This document shows, piece by piece, positions 7,048 to 44,500 of a stretch of DNA of 50,072 nt; position 1 is the first letter of the stretch, and every line of letters begins with the position of its first letter. The stretch is from positions 1-50,072 of IMG/VR virus record IMGVR_UViG_3300047546_002417; one strand, 5' to 3'. The notes beneath the pieces are model-generated. The model saw only the letters and a list, made by a program, of their open reading frames with translations. It made no database searches and had not been told where the DNA came from. This stretch comes from a virus. The translations under genes and the position numbers were made by a program.

Positions 7048-7080
7048 GATAAATACCCTACTAGATAGGGTATTTTTATG
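7048..7080 (+). promoter_or_regulatory. Late promoter nested in a start-masking hairpin
   Basis: GATAAATA (7048-7055) overlaps the left arm of a perfect 9-bp repeat: AAATACCCT 7051-7059, AGGGTATTT 7067-7075, 7-nt loop. The right arm contains the likely Shine-Dalgarno AGGG, 7 nt before the ATG at 7078. The predicted late +1 (7061) is in the loop, so late RNA lacks the left arm. The T-run after the stem may also terminate upstream transcripts. Confidence 0.8.
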
Positions 7081-7833
7081 GCTGATTTACAACAACTGAA
7101 AAGCGCACTTTTTAATAATGTGAGATTGCGTCTGGGCGGTAACATCGTAGACCTGGAACTGGACCCGGAGCATTATGAAGCTGCCTTTAACTATGCTGTG
7201 GCCACGTATCGTCAAAGAGCAGCTAATGCCTACGAAGAAAGCTACATGCTCCTGACCATTGAAAATGACAAAAACAGCTATATCCTGCCCGAAGAAGTAA
7301 CCACTGTACGTCAAGTGTTCCGTCGCACAGTGGGTCTGGAAACTGGTCCCAGTGCCAGTAGCTTTGACCCATTCAGCAGCGCCATTCTGAACACCTACCT
7401 GTTGAACTATAACTATGCTGGTGGTCTGGCTACATACGATTTCTATGCTGGTTACATTGAGCTGGCTGCCCGTATGTTCGGTGGCTACGTAATCTACACC
7501 TTCAACCCAGTGACCAAAGAGATCAAGTTTGTGCGTGACTTCAAGGGCACAGGTGAACATCTGCTGCTCTGGTGCTACAATCTGAAACCAGAAATAACAC
7601 TGTTGCGTGATCCTGGCAGTACCAACTGGATAACCAGCTGGACACTGTGCCAGTGCAAGATGATCATAGGTGAAGCCCGTGAAAAATATAGTACAGTGGC
7701 TGGTCCTGGCGGCGGAACCACACTCAATGGTAGCCAGATGAAGGCCGAAGCCAAAGAAGGCTTTGCCCAACTGGAAGAAGAACTCAAGCGTTATCAGGAT
7801 TGGAGCCAGCCCTTGACCTGGGTCATAGGCTAA
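7078..7833 (+). CDS. 13: Neck protein gp13-like
   Basis: A 251-aa protein resembling gp13 neck proteins of cyanophages: a short N-terminal helix (LKSALFNNVRLRLGG), the VDLELDPEHYEAAFNYAVATYRQRA segment, a central beta region and an alpha-helical C terminus (QLEEELKRYQDWSQPLTWVIG). T4 gp13 is about 309 aa. Gp13 and gp14 form the collar on which the tail docks. Here gp13 is on the plus strand, about 2.4 kb from gp14 and divergent from it, unlike the adjacent T4 order. Expression is from the hairpin-embedded late promoter just upstream. Confidence 0.72.
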   Translation: MADLQQLKSALFNNVRLRLGGNIVDLELDPEHYEAAFNYAVATYRQRAANAYEESYMLLTIENDKNSYILPEEVTTVRQVFRRTVGLETGPSASSFDPFSSAILNTYLLNYNYAGGLATYDFYAGYIELAARMFGGYVIYTFNPVTKEIKFVRDFKGTGEHLLLWCYNLKPEITLLRDPGSTNWITSWTLCQCKMIIGEAREKYSTVAGPGGGTTLNGSQMKAEAKEGFAQLEEELKRYQDWSQPLTWVIG

Positions 7834-19482: not shown

Positions 19483-19518
19483 TCCCAGGAGAATTCATTT
19501 CTCCTGGGATTTTTTTTA
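19483..19518 (+). terminator. Strong intrinsic terminator
   Basis: TCCCAGGAGAA (19483-19493), loop TTCAT, TTCTCCTGGGA (19499-19509), then a run of eight T. It ends the gp16/core transcription unit. Confidence 0.95.
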
Positions 19519-35375: not shown

Positions 35376-37655
35376 ATGATTAATAACCCTGAAGTTGATC
35401 AAATTATTGAGCAGGCCGTAAGTCTGGCTCGCGACCGCAATCACAAGTATGTGACACTGGAGCACACCTTGCTCAGCCTGATCACATACGATCCATTCAG
35501 GCGTCAGCTGGATACCTTTGGTGTAGACACTGACGGCATGATACTGGATGTGAGTGGTTATCTTGACACATTGACCACACTGGTGGTTGATGTGTCAGAA
35601 ACTGGCGAAACTGTACAACCGCGCAAGACCAACGCACTGGAGCGCATGTTCAATCGTGCAGTCACACAAGTGCTGTTCACAGGGCGCCGTCAGATTGAAG
35701 TCATTGACCTTTATCTGAGCATCATTGCCGAGACCAACAGTCACGCCCATTATTTCTTGCTCAAGTGGGGCGTGACTCGTAATGAGTTTATTGCTTTCTG
35801 GCAAAAACACCACAAGCCTGGTAAAACTGGCAGCCGCATGACTGACGAACAAGCCACAGAAATTCTGGAAGAATTCACCATCAACTTGACTCAACAGGCT
35901 CGTGACAATCGTGTAGAGCCTGTGATCGGTCGCGACCAAGAAATTGATGACATTATCAATGTGCTGGCCAAGCGGTTTAAGAGCAACGTGCTCATGGTGG
36001 GTGATCCGGGAGTGGGTAAAACTGCCATCGCTGAGGGCATTGCCCGCAAGATTGTGGCCGACCAGGTGCCTGAATTCCTGAAAGAACATGAACTGTACAG
36101 TCTGGAAGTGGGCAGCTTGCTGGCTGGCAGCAAGTATCGCGGTGACTTTGAAGAAAAAGTCAAGAATGTGCTGGATGCACTGAATGCCAAGCCCAACAGC
36201 ATCCTGTTCATTGACGAAGCTCATACCATGCGTGGTGCTGGCAGCAGCACCAGCAGCAGCGTTGACTTTGCCAACATGATCAAGCCCGCTATCACCAAGG
36301 GCACACTCAAGATCATTGCCAGCACCACCTGGGAAGAATTCTACGAAAGCTTTGAAAAGGATCGTGCACTCATGCGCCGATTCTATCGCGTGAGCGTGGA
36401 TGAGCCGGATCTGGCCACCACTGAGCGAATTCTCACTGGCTTGAGCAGTCGTTTGGAAGAATTCCATAAAGTAGTAATTGACGCCAGCGCCATCAAGGCT
36501 AGTGTGGAATTGAGCAATCGTTATATTCATGATCGTAAGAATCCTGACAAGAGCATTGATCTGCTGGATGCAGCATGCGCCAAACAGCGAGTGGCAGACG
36601 CAGCGGGGGCCCTGATTGACAGCGACAGCATTCGTGAACAGGTGAGCAAGAGTGCTGGGATTCCCGTAGACAAGATGAACACTGACACTAGTGATCGCTT
36701 GGTAAATCTAGAAAGCAATATCAAGCAAAAACTTTACGGTCAGGACACTACCGTGGATCAGGTGCTGGAACGTGTGTATGTGAGCTATGCTGGCATTGCC
36801 AGTGAGCGCAAGCCCATGGCCAGCTTCTTGTTCCTGGGCCCCACTGGCACTGGCAAAACAGAACTGGCTCGTTTGCTGAGTGACAACCTGGACATGCCCT
36901 TGCTCAAGTATGACATGAGTGAGTATCAGGAAAAGCACAGTGTGGCTGCCCTGATTGGCGCTCCTCCGGGCTATGTGGGCTACGGTGAGGGCAATCTGGG
37001 TGGCGGCAAGCTGATCAACGACCTGAGCAAAAATCCCTATGCTATCTTGTTGTTTGATGAGGTTGAAAAAGCACACCCAGATGTGTACAACCTGTTCTTG
37101 CAATTGCTGGATGAGGGTCGTATCACTGGTACTAACGGCAAGACTGTGAATGCCAAGAACACCATCGTGATCATGACCAGCAACCTGGGTGCCCGAGACA
37201 GCGAGCGCAGCAACATTGGTTTCGGAGAACAGCGCAAGAGTGGTGAGGATGACAAAGCAGTGAAGGAATACTTCAAGCCTGAACTGCGCAATCGTATTGA
37301 TCAGATTTGCAAGTTTGATCGTCTGGACAATCTGGCTATCAAGAAAATTGTCTGCAAGTTTGTGAATGAACTGCGCACTCAGTTGCAGAATCAGCATGAC
37401 ATTCACCTGAGCCTGACTGAGGATGCCATTGATCATCTGGCTCGCACGGGTTATGATGACAAGATGGGTGCCCGGCCCCTGGCCCGCAAGATTGATGAAA
37501 CTGTGCGTGTGCCCTTGAGCAAACGCATACTGTTTGAGCGTGTGCGAGCAGCCAACATTCAGGGTCGTCTGGAAAATGACGCCGTTGTGTTTGACATTGT
37601 GCCACGTGCAACTGAAGCAGAGGTGGGGCCTGATGGCATCATCACAGTCCGTTGA
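35376..37655 (+). CDS. clpA: ClpA-type AAA+ unfoldase
   Basis: A 759-aa, full-length ClpA. A Clp N-domain (two repeats) at residues 1-145; D1 with Walker A GDPGVGKT (209-216), Walker B ILFIDEAH (276-283) and pore loop KYRG (253-256); D2 with Walker A GPTGTGKT (488-495), pore loop GYVG (532-535) and Walker B ILLFDEVE (557-564). The tripeptide IGF at 614-616 sits where E. coli ClpA has its ClpP-docking IGL. No ClpB middle domain. It should unfold proteins and could feed host ClpP. Shine-Dalgarno GGGAG. Confidence 0.96.
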   Translation: MINNPEVDQIIEQAVSLARDRNHKYVTLEHTLLSLITYDPFRRQLDTFGVDTDGMILDVSGYLDTLTTLVVDVSETGETVQPRKTNALERMFNRAVTQVLFTGRRQIEVIDLYLSIIAETNSHAHYFLLKWGVTRNEFIAFWQKHHKPGKTGSRMTDEQATEILEEFTINLTQQARDNRVEPVIGRDQEIDDIINVLAKRFKSNVLMVGDPGVGKTAIAEGIARKIVADQVPEFLKEHELYSLEVGSLLAGSKYRGDFEEKVKNVLDALNAKPNSILFIDEAHTMRGAGSSTSSSVDFANMIKPAITKGTLKIIASTTWEEFYESFEKDRALMRRFYRVSVDEPDLATTERILTGLSSRLEEFHKVVIDASAIKASVELSNRYIHDRKNPDKSIDLLDAACAKQRVADAAGALIDSDSIREQVSKSAGIPVDKMNTDTSDRLVNLESNIKQKLYGQDTTVDQVLERVYVSYAGIASERKPMASFLFLGPTGTGKTELARLLSDNLDMPLLKYDMSEYQEKHSVAALIGAPPGYVGYGEGNLGGGKLINDLSKNPYAILLFDEVEKAHPDVYNLFLQLLDEGRITGTNGKTVNAKNTIVIMTSNLGARDSERSNIGFGEQRKSGEDDKAVKEYFKPELRNRIDQICKFDRLDNLAIKKIVCKFVNELRTQLQNQHDIHLSLTEDAIDHLARTGYDDKMGARPLARKIDETVRVPLSKRILFERVRAANIQGRLENDAVVFDIVPRATEAEVGPDGIITVR

Positions 37656-38349
37656 AATTCTCACAGACCCACATCGTGTGGGTCGTTATTTTGACACATA
37701 TGCTTACCGCATAACTGCCTATATTGATGGCATAGAATATTTCCGGCGCGTGAAATCTCATGCAGAATATCTGCTCAGGCTGGAACATCATGTGGCTTTG
37801 TACCGGAAAAGGTCATATGACCCAGTGTATGCTCCAGTCAAACAAGTGGTACAACATCAGTTGATGCTGCTAGATGGATTGTTTGTGTGGCTGGATCAGC
37901 TGGGTTCTCGTGAATTCAAACGTGCTGTCAGTTCTGGTCATCTGACTTTTTACACCAATGATCAGTCAATACTGCAGCAGTTGCATGACTTGTGCCGCAT
38001 ACATGATGTGAAGACCGCAGCCTATCAAGTGGTTACGCCAGCCAATTATGAGCGCGGAGTCATTTATCAACGTCAGCCCAAGCACGCACACAGAATATTT
38101 CTCACTAGCAGAACCTGGGAGCCACAAGAAACCACTGCGCTGGGAGAGTTTTTAGATGCCAATTCTGATAACTTTTTCCCTAGCCCCAGTCTGAGAGCCT
38201 GGTATTATCGTGGCCGTCACCTGGTGAACCGTCACAGATATAGCTATACTACGCTATTTTTTGATGTGGACGATGAACAATATCTGGTGTATTTTGCTCT
38301 GAAATTCAGCAACACAGTGGGAAAAGTCTGCCGCATAGAAAAAAGATAA
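37633..38349 (+). CDS. Unrecognised phage protein
   Basis: A 238-aa protein, Tyr/Arg/His-rich, mixed alpha/beta (VGRYFDTYAYRITAYIDGIEYFRRVKSHAEYLLRLEHHVALYRKRSYDPVY ... HRIFLTSRTWEPQET). I do not recognise a family. The start is placed at 37633 because AGGTGGGG precedes it; this overlaps the end of clpA by 23 bp, so it is coupled to clpA and may be an adaptor or regulator, by position only. Its end abuts a late-promoter hairpin. Confidence 0.68.
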   Translation: MASSQSVEILTDPHRVGRYFDTYAYRITAYIDGIEYFRRVKSHAEYLLRLEHHVALYRKRSYDPVYAPVKQVVQHQLMLLDGLFVWLDQLGSREFKRAVSSGHLTFYTNDQSILQQLHDLCRIHDVKTAAYQVVTPANYERGVIYQRQPKHAHRIFLTSRTWEPQETTALGEFLDANSDNFFPSPSLRAWYYRGRHLVNRHRYSYTTLFFDVDDEQYLVYFALKFSNTVGKVCRIEKR

Positions 38350-38380
38350 ATACTCCATATAACCTGGAGTATTTTTCATG
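38345..38380 (+). promoter_or_regulatory. Late promoter nested in a start-masking hairpin
   Basis: GATAAATA (38345-38352) overlaps the left arm of a perfect 10-bp repeat: AAATACTCCA 38348-38357, TGGAGTATTT 38365-38374, 7-nt loop. The right arm contains the Shine-Dalgarno GGAG, 8 nt before the ATG at 38378. Predicted late +1 (38358) is the first loop base. A T-run follows, so it may also terminate clpA-operon transcripts. Confidence 0.82.
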
Positions 38381-38542
38381 GCCAAGATACATGAAGAAGT
38401 CATTGTAATCAAGCTGAGCAAACTGGTCAAAGACCAGGAATCACCTGAAGTGGTTGCCACAGACGAGGTAATTGATGCTCTGAGCAGCGTAGCCGAAGAA
38501 CTGGCTGGCAGCGGCGTAGTTGTGGAAGTGGAAAGAGCATAA
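38378..38542 (+). CDS. 54-aa small phage protein
   Basis: A 54-aa frame with GGAG at good spacing and its own late promoter, ending TAATG so that its stop overlaps the next start. Product MAKIHEEVIVIKLSKLVKDQ, then an acidic helix (DEVIDALSSVAEELAGSG) and a final strand (VVVEVERA): a beta-alpha-beta miniature. No family is recognised. The tight coupling to the 38542 structural gene indicates a real, late-expressed gene. Confidence 0.72.
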   Translation: MAKIHEEVIVIKLSKLVKDQESPEVVATDEVIDALSSVAEELAGSGVVVEVERA

Positions 38543-39110: not shown

Positions 39111-39138
39111 TTGACCCCGGCATCTCCATGTAAATACT
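39111..39138 (+). promoter_or_regulatory. Possible sigma70-like promoter
   Basis: TTGACC 39111-39116, 16-bp spacer, AATACT 39133-39138; weaker than the others. A TAAATAC at 39131 overlaps and could be a poor late element. The leader contains GAGAGG before the ATG at 39165. Confidence 0.45.
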
Positions 39139-39164
39139 TTCACAATTTACATTGAGAGGCACAA

Positions 39165-40094
39165 ATGGCAACACGTAAAAGTAAAAAAGCAGTTCCTGTA
39201 GACGCAGTACAAGAACTGGCAGACAAGGCCGCACAAGCAGCAAGCATTGGCGGTACTGACAAAGCAGCAGAAACTGGTGTAGTTTCAGACGAAAAACCCA
39301 ACCCCAACCAGGTTCAAGTAAACGTAGATTATCTACGCACAACCAAAGCACATATTGCCATGCCCTGCTACGGTGGCATGTTGACTGAAAGTTGCTTCAT
39401 GAGTTTCATCAAGTTCGCCAACACGGCCCGTCAGCTGGGCATTGACTGGACTCTGGAAACCATGGTCAACGAAAGTCTAATCAGTCGTGCTCGTAATACC
39501 CTGACTGCAAAATTCCTGCATCAGAAGGAAAGCACTCACCTGATGTTCATTGATGCTGACATTGGCTGGGAACCCTGGCACCTGTTGGTGTTGTTGAACC
39601 GCGACAAGGACATGATCGGTGGCCTGTACCCCATGAAGACCATGCCCATCAAGTGGGTGGTCAACGGGTTTGAGGGCGCTGAAGAAGGTCCTGATGGCCT
39701 GCAAGAAGTCAGCAAGACTGGCACTGGCTTCCTGCTGACCAAGCGCAATGTGTTTGAGAAGATGGCCAGCCATCCTGCCGTCAAGCAGTACAAGAACGAT
39801 ATCGGTCTGGACCCTGTGTACGACCAATATCTGCGTACCTACTGGGACACTGCTGTCCGCCAGAACCGCTACTATAGCGAGGACTGGACTGCCTGTGAAA
39901 ACTGGCGTGACATGGGCGGCCGCATCTGGGTTGACAAGCGTGTGCTGCTGCGCCACACTGGCACTTATGTGTTCTGCATGGAGAACCAGGATCACCTGTA
40001 CAACCACATCGGTCCACAGTATCTGGAAAACATGAAGAATGCTGGTAAAGTTGTCATGGTAGACGACACGGCCGCAGAAAAGAAAGCTGCTTAA
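39165..40094 (+). CDS. GT-A-like glycosyltransferase
   Basis: A 309-aa protein. After a Lys/Ala-rich 55-residue N-terminal tail, the core reads HIAMPCYGGMLTESCFMSFIKFAN, SLISRARNTLTAKFL and HLMFIDADIGWEP, with the GT-A DxD at residues 130-132, then MIGGLYPMK and SKTGTGFLLTKRNVFEKM. This matches phage glycosyltransferases that decorate DNA bases, capsids or host surface sugars; the target here is unknown. Ends before a strong terminator, so it is a single-gene unit. Confidence 0.82.
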   Translation: MATRKSKKAVPVDAVQELADKAAQAASIGGTDKAAETGVVSDEKPNPNQVQVNVDYLRTTKAHIAMPCYGGMLTESCFMSFIKFANTARQLGIDWTLETMVNESLISRARNTLTAKFLHQKESTHLMFIDADIGWEPWHLLVLLNRDKDMIGGLYPMKTMPIKWVVNGFEGAEEGPDGLQEVSKTGTGFLLTKRNVFEKMASHPAVKQYKNDIGLDPVYDQYLRTYWDTAVRQNRYYSEDWTACENWRDMGGRIWVDKRVLLRHTGTYVFCMENQDHLYNHIGPQYLENMKNAGKVVMVDDTAAEKKAA

Positions 40095-40114: not shown

Positions 40115-40143
40115 AGCCACAGGTGACCCCTGTGGCTTTTTTT
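40115..40143 (+). terminator. Intrinsic terminator
   Basis: AGCCACAGG (40115-40123), 5-nt loop, CCTGTGGCT (40129-40137), then a T-run that leads directly into the late octamer at 40144. Confidence 0.92.
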
Positions 40144-41490: not shown

Positions 41491-41504
41491 CTGGTTTACC
41501 TTTG

Positions 41505-41525
41505 ATTCTGGATAAATACCAGAAT
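41505..41525 (+). promoter_or_regulatory. Late promoter forming the loop of an inverted repeat
   Basis: ATTCTGG (41505-41511) and CCAGAAT (41519-41525) form a perfect 7-bp repeat whose 7-nt loop is exactly ATAAATA, the promoter core. Unlike the other cases the right arm lies 20 nt before the ATG at 41545 and does not cover the AAGGA ribosome site. Confidence 0.7.
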
Positions 41526-41544
41526 AACTATAAGGAATTCTAGC

Positions 41545-44500
41545 ATGGCCACCCGTCCATTCACCATTGACACCAACACTGATCCAGCACTGCTGACCGC
41601 ACAGCAGCGTTCAGGATCTCAGATCATAGGCAATACCAGTGTAATCATAGCCAACAACACCCATACCATTGACGCTGGGGAAAACGTAGTAGTGGTCACT
41701 ACTGATCAAGAAGTTTTCGTCACGGTCAACGAAGAAAATTTTGATCAGAACTTTATTACCAATCAGGTTAATAACGTAGGCGGCGGAGATGGACAAGTAC
41801 AGTACAATGCCAATGGCAGTTTTGCTGGTGATAGTACATTCACTTTCAGCAATATTACCAAAGTTCTGACTGTGGGCGGTTTAAAAACAGATACCTTGCT
41901 CTACAGTAATGGACAACCCTGGAATACAGGCGGCGGTAATGCTGAACCTGGTGGCACCAACGGCCAATTGCAGTTCAATGATGCTGGTGCCTTCAATGGG
42001 GTGCCAGGAGTAACCTGGGCCAATGCCCGACTAAATTTAGGCGTATTAAGTAATCTGAGCATCAGCGGTGGCAGCTCGGGACAAGTGTTGACAACCAATG
42101 GCTCAGGCGTCCTAAGCTGGACCACACCCGCAGCACCATATGGTGATGCCAATGTGGCAGCATATTTGCCCACCTATACTGGCAATGTGGGAGCTAACTG
42201 GATCAAGGCAGATTATGTCATGGGCAATGCCAACCCCTTGTACTACATACCTGGTGCCAACGTTGTGGGTGCAGTGCCCAGTGCCACAGTTGCTGGCAGT
42301 GCCACAGTAGCCAGTTCAGCCAACAGTGTGGCCTTGGCCAACGTAGCAGGAGCTGGTAATATTGCCAGCATCAACCTGTCAGGCTCTAGCAGCAATGTAC
42401 TATACGGCAACGGCACATGGGCACCTGTAAGCGGCGGCAACAGTGCTAACGCTAACTACGCCAATTTTGCCGGCACTGCATATAGTGTTGATGGCGCCAA
42501 TGTTGATGGCGTAGTTGCTAACGCAGATTTCAGCGAAAGAATCGCAGTAGAAGCTGTGAACAATAACTATAGCTATCATGTGGTGCTGACCACTGGTCCT
42601 GGTGACAGTACCCTACACAATGACGTAGATGATAGCTTCCAGTACAACCCTGCCGACGGTATACTGACCGTAACCAGAGTTGACACTGATTACTTACAAG
42701 TATCTCAGAGTGTACTGTCCAATCTAGTACCCTTTGACAGTCTGCCCTTGAGCTTGGGTAATGTTACTAACCCATGGCAAAATATTCATGCTGGTAATGC
42801 TACACTTACTGGTACAGGAACGGCCCTAAATGTGTCATCGGGCAATATATTAACCAACCAGGTTACTGGCACAGCATTTAATTTTCTAAATGGACTTTAT
42901 ACTGCTTCCATAACTGGTCAGGGCGCCACAAGTAACTATACACTAAATTTGCCAGCGACTGCAGGGAGCAATGGCCAAGTATTGTCTACTGATGGTACTG
43001 GCAACCTCAGCTGGATAAATGCTGGTGGCGGTGGGAATACAGGCAATGTAACATTCAATGATATCAATATCATTGGTACAGGAAACTTACACTTACAGCC
43101 TGACCCTGCTAACACTAGTTCATACTTAGATATCTTCTTAACATCTGGTCCAGACCTTCACCTTGTAGCCAGTGCAGCCGCAAATCTTATATTAGGCAAG
43201 GACGATGCAGCCAATGTAATGACAAGTTGGGACGGCAATGTATATGTTCAGTCTTGGAATAATGGTAGTAACGCTCAAGGTGGCGTTTGGACATTCGGCG
43301 GAGATGGTACATTAACTGTACCACAAAATATACACGGTAACGGAGCATTACAGTTACAAGGACTTGCTAACGGTAATACTACTATCAACATAGGTTCGGG
43401 TGTTGGTGGTGATATTGATATGGTGTCTAACCTAGGTAATATCAATCTTTATACAGCAAGTAATCAACCTTGGATCTTTGATCAAGGTGGTAATCTTACA
43501 GCACCGGGAGCGATCAAGGTAGGCAATATGTCTATCGGTACGGTGCCCGGCGATATTACAGCAAACAATAATACAACAGTAGCGTTTAATGTTACCGGTA
43601 GTGACGGCGGATTCTTAGTAAATTATCTTGACGAAGTAGGCAATGCTAATACCAGCGGAGGCGAGTTAGCATTCAATTCAGAAACAGGCAATGCAACTTA
43701 TAGAATATCATTATCGGATGATTTAGGTGATGGTTTTGCTACAAAGATTTGGAGATTTGATGGCACTGGTAACTTAGTATTAGCAGGTGGCAACTCAGTC
43801 ATTCAAAGTATTGCTAATAGCAGTTTAGATCCAACTAATCCAAATGTAAGCACAATGACATTAATGCCTGATGCAAATTATGGTTCACAAGTATTAGTAT
43901 TAGATCCAACTGCTCCTGGTCATATTCACTTGCGAGCATATGCGTTCAGTAACATTGATGAACCATCAGCCAATATATTCTTAGGCGGTGAAGATACTGC
44001 GTTTGAGATTACATCAGGTCCTAACAATGAAGCAAGAATACATAGCAACAACTATACCTGGACCTTCAATAATGATGGCAATTTACAAGTAGCCGGTGAT
44101 GTGTTCGCTAACACCGGCGCAAGTCCTGCTCCGGCGTTATATGGCTTCAGTTCATTGCAAGTATATGATAGTATCAATGTTGGCGGTGTTACCATCAATA
44201 GCACTGATGGTACTAATGGACAAGTATTGACCACATATGGCAACGGTGTAACTTACTGGTCAACTGTATCAGGAGGCGGTGGCACACCAGCAGGCAGCAA
44301 CAATCAGATACAGTTCAACAGTAACGGTGCATTTGCTGCCAGTGGCAATTATACATTCGCTGACACTGTGGGTGGCGGTACAGTAACAGTTGGAAATGAG
44401 TTAGTATTGCTAGGTAATGGCACTATCGGTACTGCTAACAGTAATCTAAATATTCAACCAGCTGGCAATTTAATTGTAACTGCATCTGCTTCAAATTGGA

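Follow-up and report, generated by a model that had tools for sequence, protein, structure and literature searches.

What does a perfect hairpin do when it stands immediately before a small phage gene, with an apparent late promoter in one arm and the Shine-Dalgarno (SD) sequence in the other? This is the question raised by positions 38345-38380 of the window, a 50,072-nt stretch covering positions 1 to 50,072 of the viral record IMGVR_UViG_3300047546_002417, in which tail sheath, tail tube, neck, endolysin, clamp loader and ClpA-like genes are found. Its nearest cultured kin, judged by the neck protein (33-40% identity), are the giant T4-like phages Atu_ph07, XaC1, RaK2, 121Q, CBB, and PA5oct. 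The gene behind the hairpin (38378..38542, +) codes for 54 aa and belongs to a family, P0001, with no assigned function; its relatives are encoded on 158 viral stretches, and the family had no PHROG match, no relative among cultured phages and no match in a DNA-level search of phages. The last gene 5' of the hairpin is an ORF (37633..38349, +) whose ATG at 37633 overlaps the end of a clpA-like ATPase gene (35376..37655, +; phrog_4871, E 2.8e-238); a longer upstream frame, 37534-38346, has no PHROG match. Both the upstream ORF, the presumed source of read-through RNA, and clpA share the strand of the 54-aa gene, and the TAA stop of this ORF (38347-38349) falls within the promoter.

The element reads GATAAATACTCCATATAACCTGGAGTATTTTTCATG. 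It begins with a T4-type late promoter octamer, GATAAATA (38345..38352, +), which matches the T4 consensus at 7 of 8 positions, as its first position is a G. The left arm, AAATACTCCA (38348..38357, +), forms 10 perfect pairs with the right arm, TGGAGTATTT (38365..38374, +), enclosing a 7-nt loop (38358..38364, +); the right arm includes the SD, GGAG, at 38366-38369, with a spacing of 8 nt to the ATG at 38378. The T4 late octamer begins at -13 (PMC2988020), and with the octamer set at -13 to -6, the predicted +1 is 38358, the first base of the loop; the left arm then ends at -1, wholly 5' of the predicted start, and the entire arm would, therefore, be absent from late RNA. The TAAATA-to-ATG distances of leaderless sites, described below, peak at the same spacing. 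The original prediction of a 10-bp hairpin, octamer, GGAG, and +1 at 38358 is, thus, exact to the base. The role of TAAATA as a late promoter in this phage, although predicted, is well founded, since relatives carry a gp55-like sigma and ATAAATA is reported to precede structural genes in CBB (PMC5259590). Of 10 long relatives, 7 clearly have this sigma, as does every cultured one tested; the window, a 50-kb fragment, is without one.

Folding of 38348-38374 gives -10.6 kcal/mol (z -5.2), a value that none of 200 shuffles equalled. Across the window, perfect hairpins of at least 10 bp with a loop of 3-8 nt occur five times against 0.43 expected, and TAAATA occurs 34 times against 19 expected. 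The joint motif, TAAATA with a stem of at least 8 bp and an ATG, is found twice (at 7050 and 38347), compared with 7 occurrences in 200 shuffled windows combined.

TAAATA is present upstream of nearly all homologues of the 54-aa gene on the 158 viral-contig stretches. Among 80 distinct leaders, 43 are leadered, 31 are leaderless or nearly so, and 6 have no motif; the 31 distinct homologues have neither leader nor lock. A stem of at least 9 bp is kept in 27 of the 43 distinct leadered relatives, with loops of 3-7 nt and the consensus ATAAATACTCTA..TGGAGTATTT. Over 28 relatives, the named pairs are formed in 97.1% of cells, against 38-58% for slid structures. Loss of pairing in close relatives had been named beforehand as a point that would speak against a lock; pairing is kept, which favours it. 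Covariation at this hairpin is modest, with a score of 0.124 versus 0.088 when shuffled, above all shuffles, and with few double changes, because pairs inside the promoter hardly vary and both arms carry other signals; strong covariation is seen instead at the other two locked genes, considered below.

A hairpin followed by a T-run may also be mainly an intrinsic terminator, here of the clpA operon, with the overlap of promoter and SD being incidental. TTTTTC does come straight after the 38348 stem, and the original prediction had proposed that the element might also terminate the clpA operon. On a score of the d'Aubenton-Carafa type (our own approximate implementation, threshold 0), the 38348 element reaches only -13.3 and the 7050 element -5, whereas a hairpin at 40115 scores +35. 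None of the 43 leadered relatives of the 54-aa gene passes, nor does any of 46 members of the 39165-gene family, and at the 38348 element only 3 of 30 relatives retain a T-run of at least 5; separate T-counts from the strong-lock survey described below, which include extended pairing, were left aside. The SD lies in the right arms, where termination has no need of it. In favour of termination, 8 of 47 neck-gene hairpins score as terminators, and hairpins of CBB and 121Q overlap promoters and carry long T-runs. We consider this reading unlikely and, with a sub-threshold score and a U-tract that is not conserved, rejected termination as the main role of the 38348 element; the proposal for the clpA operon was not upheld, and a side role is possible only in some relatives, at their neck gene.

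Elsewhere in the window and in CBB, other hairpins accompany late promoters or stand apart from them. At 40115-40137, the strong terminator-like hairpin and its T-run are directly followed by a TAAATA late promoter, with an ATG 4 nt on. At position 214541 of the CBB record (loci L368-L386), a long hairpin encloses a late promoter and precedes a T-run, after which comes the SD; here a genuine terminator seems to share its sequence with a late promoter. At 41500-41545, before a 1340-aa gene, TTCTGG-ATAAATA-CCAGAA places the late promoter as the exact 7-nt loop of a 6-bp palindrome, in a fold that also engages the AAGGA region. Two more hairpins, at 905-932 and 19483-19509, are perfect over 12 and 11 bp; convergent ORFs flank one of them, and the other lies a short way 5' of the 19538 late promoter.

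We regard it as highly probable that the 38348-38374 element is a late-promoter-gated translational lock. Read-through RNA from the clpA-side genes would carry both arms, and the paired arms would hide GGAG and deny ribosomes access to the 54-aa gene. A gp55-like late sigma would use GATAAATA in the left arm, so that RNA would begin at about 38358; such late RNA, without the left arm, could not form the hairpin and would expose GGAG 8 nt before the AUG. Predicted folding gives an SD accessibility of 0.11 in the long RNA against 0.49 in the short one. It is from the DNA and its folding that we infer the position of +1, the existence of the read-through RNA, the effect on ribosomes, and every step in the cell. 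Several points speak against the lock, among them the modest covariation and the many homologues with neither leader nor lock. In addition, the stop of the upstream ORF lies inside the left arm, so that ribosomes terminating there could open the stem and bring about translational coupling, and the short RNA is itself predicted to fold around the AUG, at -7.8 kcal/mol.

The same arrangement is found at two further genes of the window. The neck, or head-tail adaptor, gene (7078..7833, +; phrog_211) is preceded by a second late promoter with the same octamer (7048..7055, +), within the left arm of a hairpin (7051..7075, +) with arms at 7051-7060 and 7066-7075, AGGG at 7067-7070, and a predicted +1 at 7061, again the first base of the loop. 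This hairpin had been described as having the same design with a 7-nt loop; the design is indeed shared, but the loop measures 5 nt. The third lock (39123..39157, +) has broken arms, 39123-39126 and 39128-39135 pairing with 39145-39152 and 39154-39157, with TAAATA at 39131-39136 and the SD GAGAGG at 39154-39159; it precedes a gene coding for 309 aa with no assigned function (39165..40094, +; phrog_1574).

Relatives of both genes show that the arms do not keep one position relative to the promoter. At the neck gene, the promoter lies in the left arm in one register (AAATACCCTA/TAGGGTATTT) and in the loop in another (TTCCGATAAATACA..AATCGGAA); at the 39165 gene, a left arm CCTC.. located 5' of the promoter pairs with ..GAGG. 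Among cultured phages, the neck-gene arms are CCTCTAAA/TTTAGAGG in XaC1; AGCACCTC/GAGGTGCT in K64-1, RaK2, PBECO4, and 121Q; CCCCTAAA/TTTAGGGG in CBB, XbC2, and SNUABM47; and GCACCCCTA/TAGGGGTGC in Munch. The SD in the right arm is constant across the registers of both genes. This bears on another reading, in which the symmetry of the arms serves the late promoter at the level of DNA or of protein binding, as an operator would, and does not make an RNA lock. T4 I-TevI does bind an operator overlapping its own late promoter, and the arms overlap the octamer in 38345-38380; nevertheless, families differ in the register of the arms against the octamer, with the promoter in the arm, in the loop, or between helices, but share an SD in the right arm, and no fixed operator sequence is seen, which makes an operator very unlikely. 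As for annotation, the neck-gene starts annotated in RaK2 (L258 208-220) and 121Q (L259 202-217), ATGAGGTGC..., fall within the lock's right arm, and those of K64-1 and Muenster lie 12-15 nt further 3', with a better SD spacing.

Choosing a control for arm matching required some care. A shuffle confined to the 50 nt 5' of TAAATA is uninformative, because the arm of the 38348 hairpin lies in the promoter itself and is left intact; we used natural swaps instead, in which each downstream part receives upstream parts from other members of its own family. Scanning viral contigs for the exact pattern gave 86 stretches, many of them reading symmetrically on either strand and doubtful in nature; a few of these at most entered the analysis. 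Swapping weakened folding from -17.9 to -11.7 kcal/mol at the neck gene (z -13.8) and from -16.0 to -10.9 kcal/mol at the 39165 gene (z -13.6). SD accessibility at the neck gene was 0.24 in the cognate long RNA, 0.39 after swapping, and 0.59 in the short RNA, with corresponding values of 0.31, 0.41, and 0.63 at the 39165 gene; for 94 leadered late sites, the long RNA gave 0.35, RNA with a swapped upstream part 0.45, and the short RNA 0.64. With a strong lock defined, over all distinct leadered sites, as an interaction of -8 kcal/mol or better, at least 3 of the 4 SD bases lie inside the right arm in 101 of 124 strong locks. One could still argue that promoter and SD, two short conserved motifs, happen to be complementary, AAATA being the complement of TATTT, and swapped controls do pair somewhat (13.5% strong locks). 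Such a coincidence seems to us extremely unlikely, as cognate pairing far exceeds that of natural swaps and the joint motif occurs twice in the window against 0.035 per shuffle.

Strong locks are associated with codirectional upstream genes: 97 of 159 sites with a codirectional neighbour have one against 2 of 12 with a divergent neighbour (p 0.004, kinship ignored). With a cruder threshold based on pair counts, the orientation effect is absent (80/159 codirectional, 6/12 divergent), and it is not significant in 121Q, CBB, or T4 taken singly. The cultured phages with a divergent gene upstream of the neck gene (Atu_ph07, Phosso, and Vibrio 2.275.O) have no clear lock; exceptions at this gene are SCTP-2, divergent with some pairing, and PA5oct, codirectional with none. 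In a sizeable minority of leadered sites, the SD is unlocked. The anatomy, the conservation, the matching of the arms, and the association with codirectional upstream genes are plain observations, and the original proposal of a late promoter combined with a translational lock draws good support from conservation, within-family arm swaps, upstream-gene orientation, and T4 positive controls.

Predicted leaderless sites form a separate mode. TAAATA-to-ATG distances are bimodal over 252 distinct sites: 97 fall at 4-8 nt, with a mode of 5 that corresponds to the predicted +1, and an SD is found in none of 91 such short-distance sites; the second mode lies at 18-30 nt, with an SD in about 80%. The short-distance (4-8 nt) mode is absent from T4. 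Whole records of several relatives also show an excess of short distances, and RaK2-like phages are without it; no cultured phage having genes with the AUG at +1 was identified. In the window, eight ORFs begin 4-7 nt after TAAATA with no SD (14384, 15189, 32847, 40156, 47068, and 48748 on the + strand; 8802 and 4680 on the - strand); they likely give leaderless late mRNAs with the AUG at the predicted late +1. Homologues of the 54-aa gene use either a leaderless start or a lock. It is, thus, conceivable, although we propose it only tentatively, that translation of late genes in this phage group is tied to the late start, either by an AUG at +1 (leaderless, no SD) or by an SD locked in read-through RNA. 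If true, late promoters would be translation switches genome-wide, compared with a few genes in T4.

Hairpins before such late genes may be misannotated as terminators, and a large share of the RNA carrying late genes may leave them silent, a point to consider in the interpretation of phage transcriptomes. Locks were found in many uncultivated giant phages and in some cultured ones; the neck-gene lock is present in the cultured E. coli phages 121Q and PBECO4 and is, therefore, directly testable. The breadth of the lock, its conservation at a virion gene, and its coexistence with leaderless starts are apparently undescribed in the open-licence papers searched.

The mechanism itself is already known from T4; what is new is its unusually broad use. 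In T4, used as a control, the largest predicted lock energies belong to genes 49, e, I-TevII, and segB, all of them published locks (PMC3014915, PMC2988022). The early RNA of gene e sequesters the SD and the late start drops the 5' arm, with about 100-fold repression (PMC3014915); for segB, a late promoter and a hairpin sequestering the ribosome-binding site are reported (PMC2988022). The segB element, ATAAATACTC...GGAG(A)TATTTATG, resembles that of the 54-aa gene almost letter for letter, with the promoter in the left arm and the SD in the right; segB, however, encodes a homing endonuclease and lies among tRNA genes, whereas the window gene is an unrelated 54-aa gene whose hairpin is conserved in many phages. 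Gene 49, the top score by our lock measure, likewise has its late promoter in the left arm and its SD region in the right (AATAAATACCC...GGGTTTATTATG), but it is another gene, with a longer loop. In T4 e, I-TevI/II/III, and Aeh1 mobE, as proposed here, early RNA hides the SD and the late start removes the 5' arm; the e and I-Tev cases are singular, whereas in the window's group the lock is found at 61% of the codirectional leadered late sites tested, a virion gene included. A classic T4 device known at a handful of genes, thus, appears widespread and conserved in distant T4-like phages, with the neck gene, for a part of the virion, among its sites.
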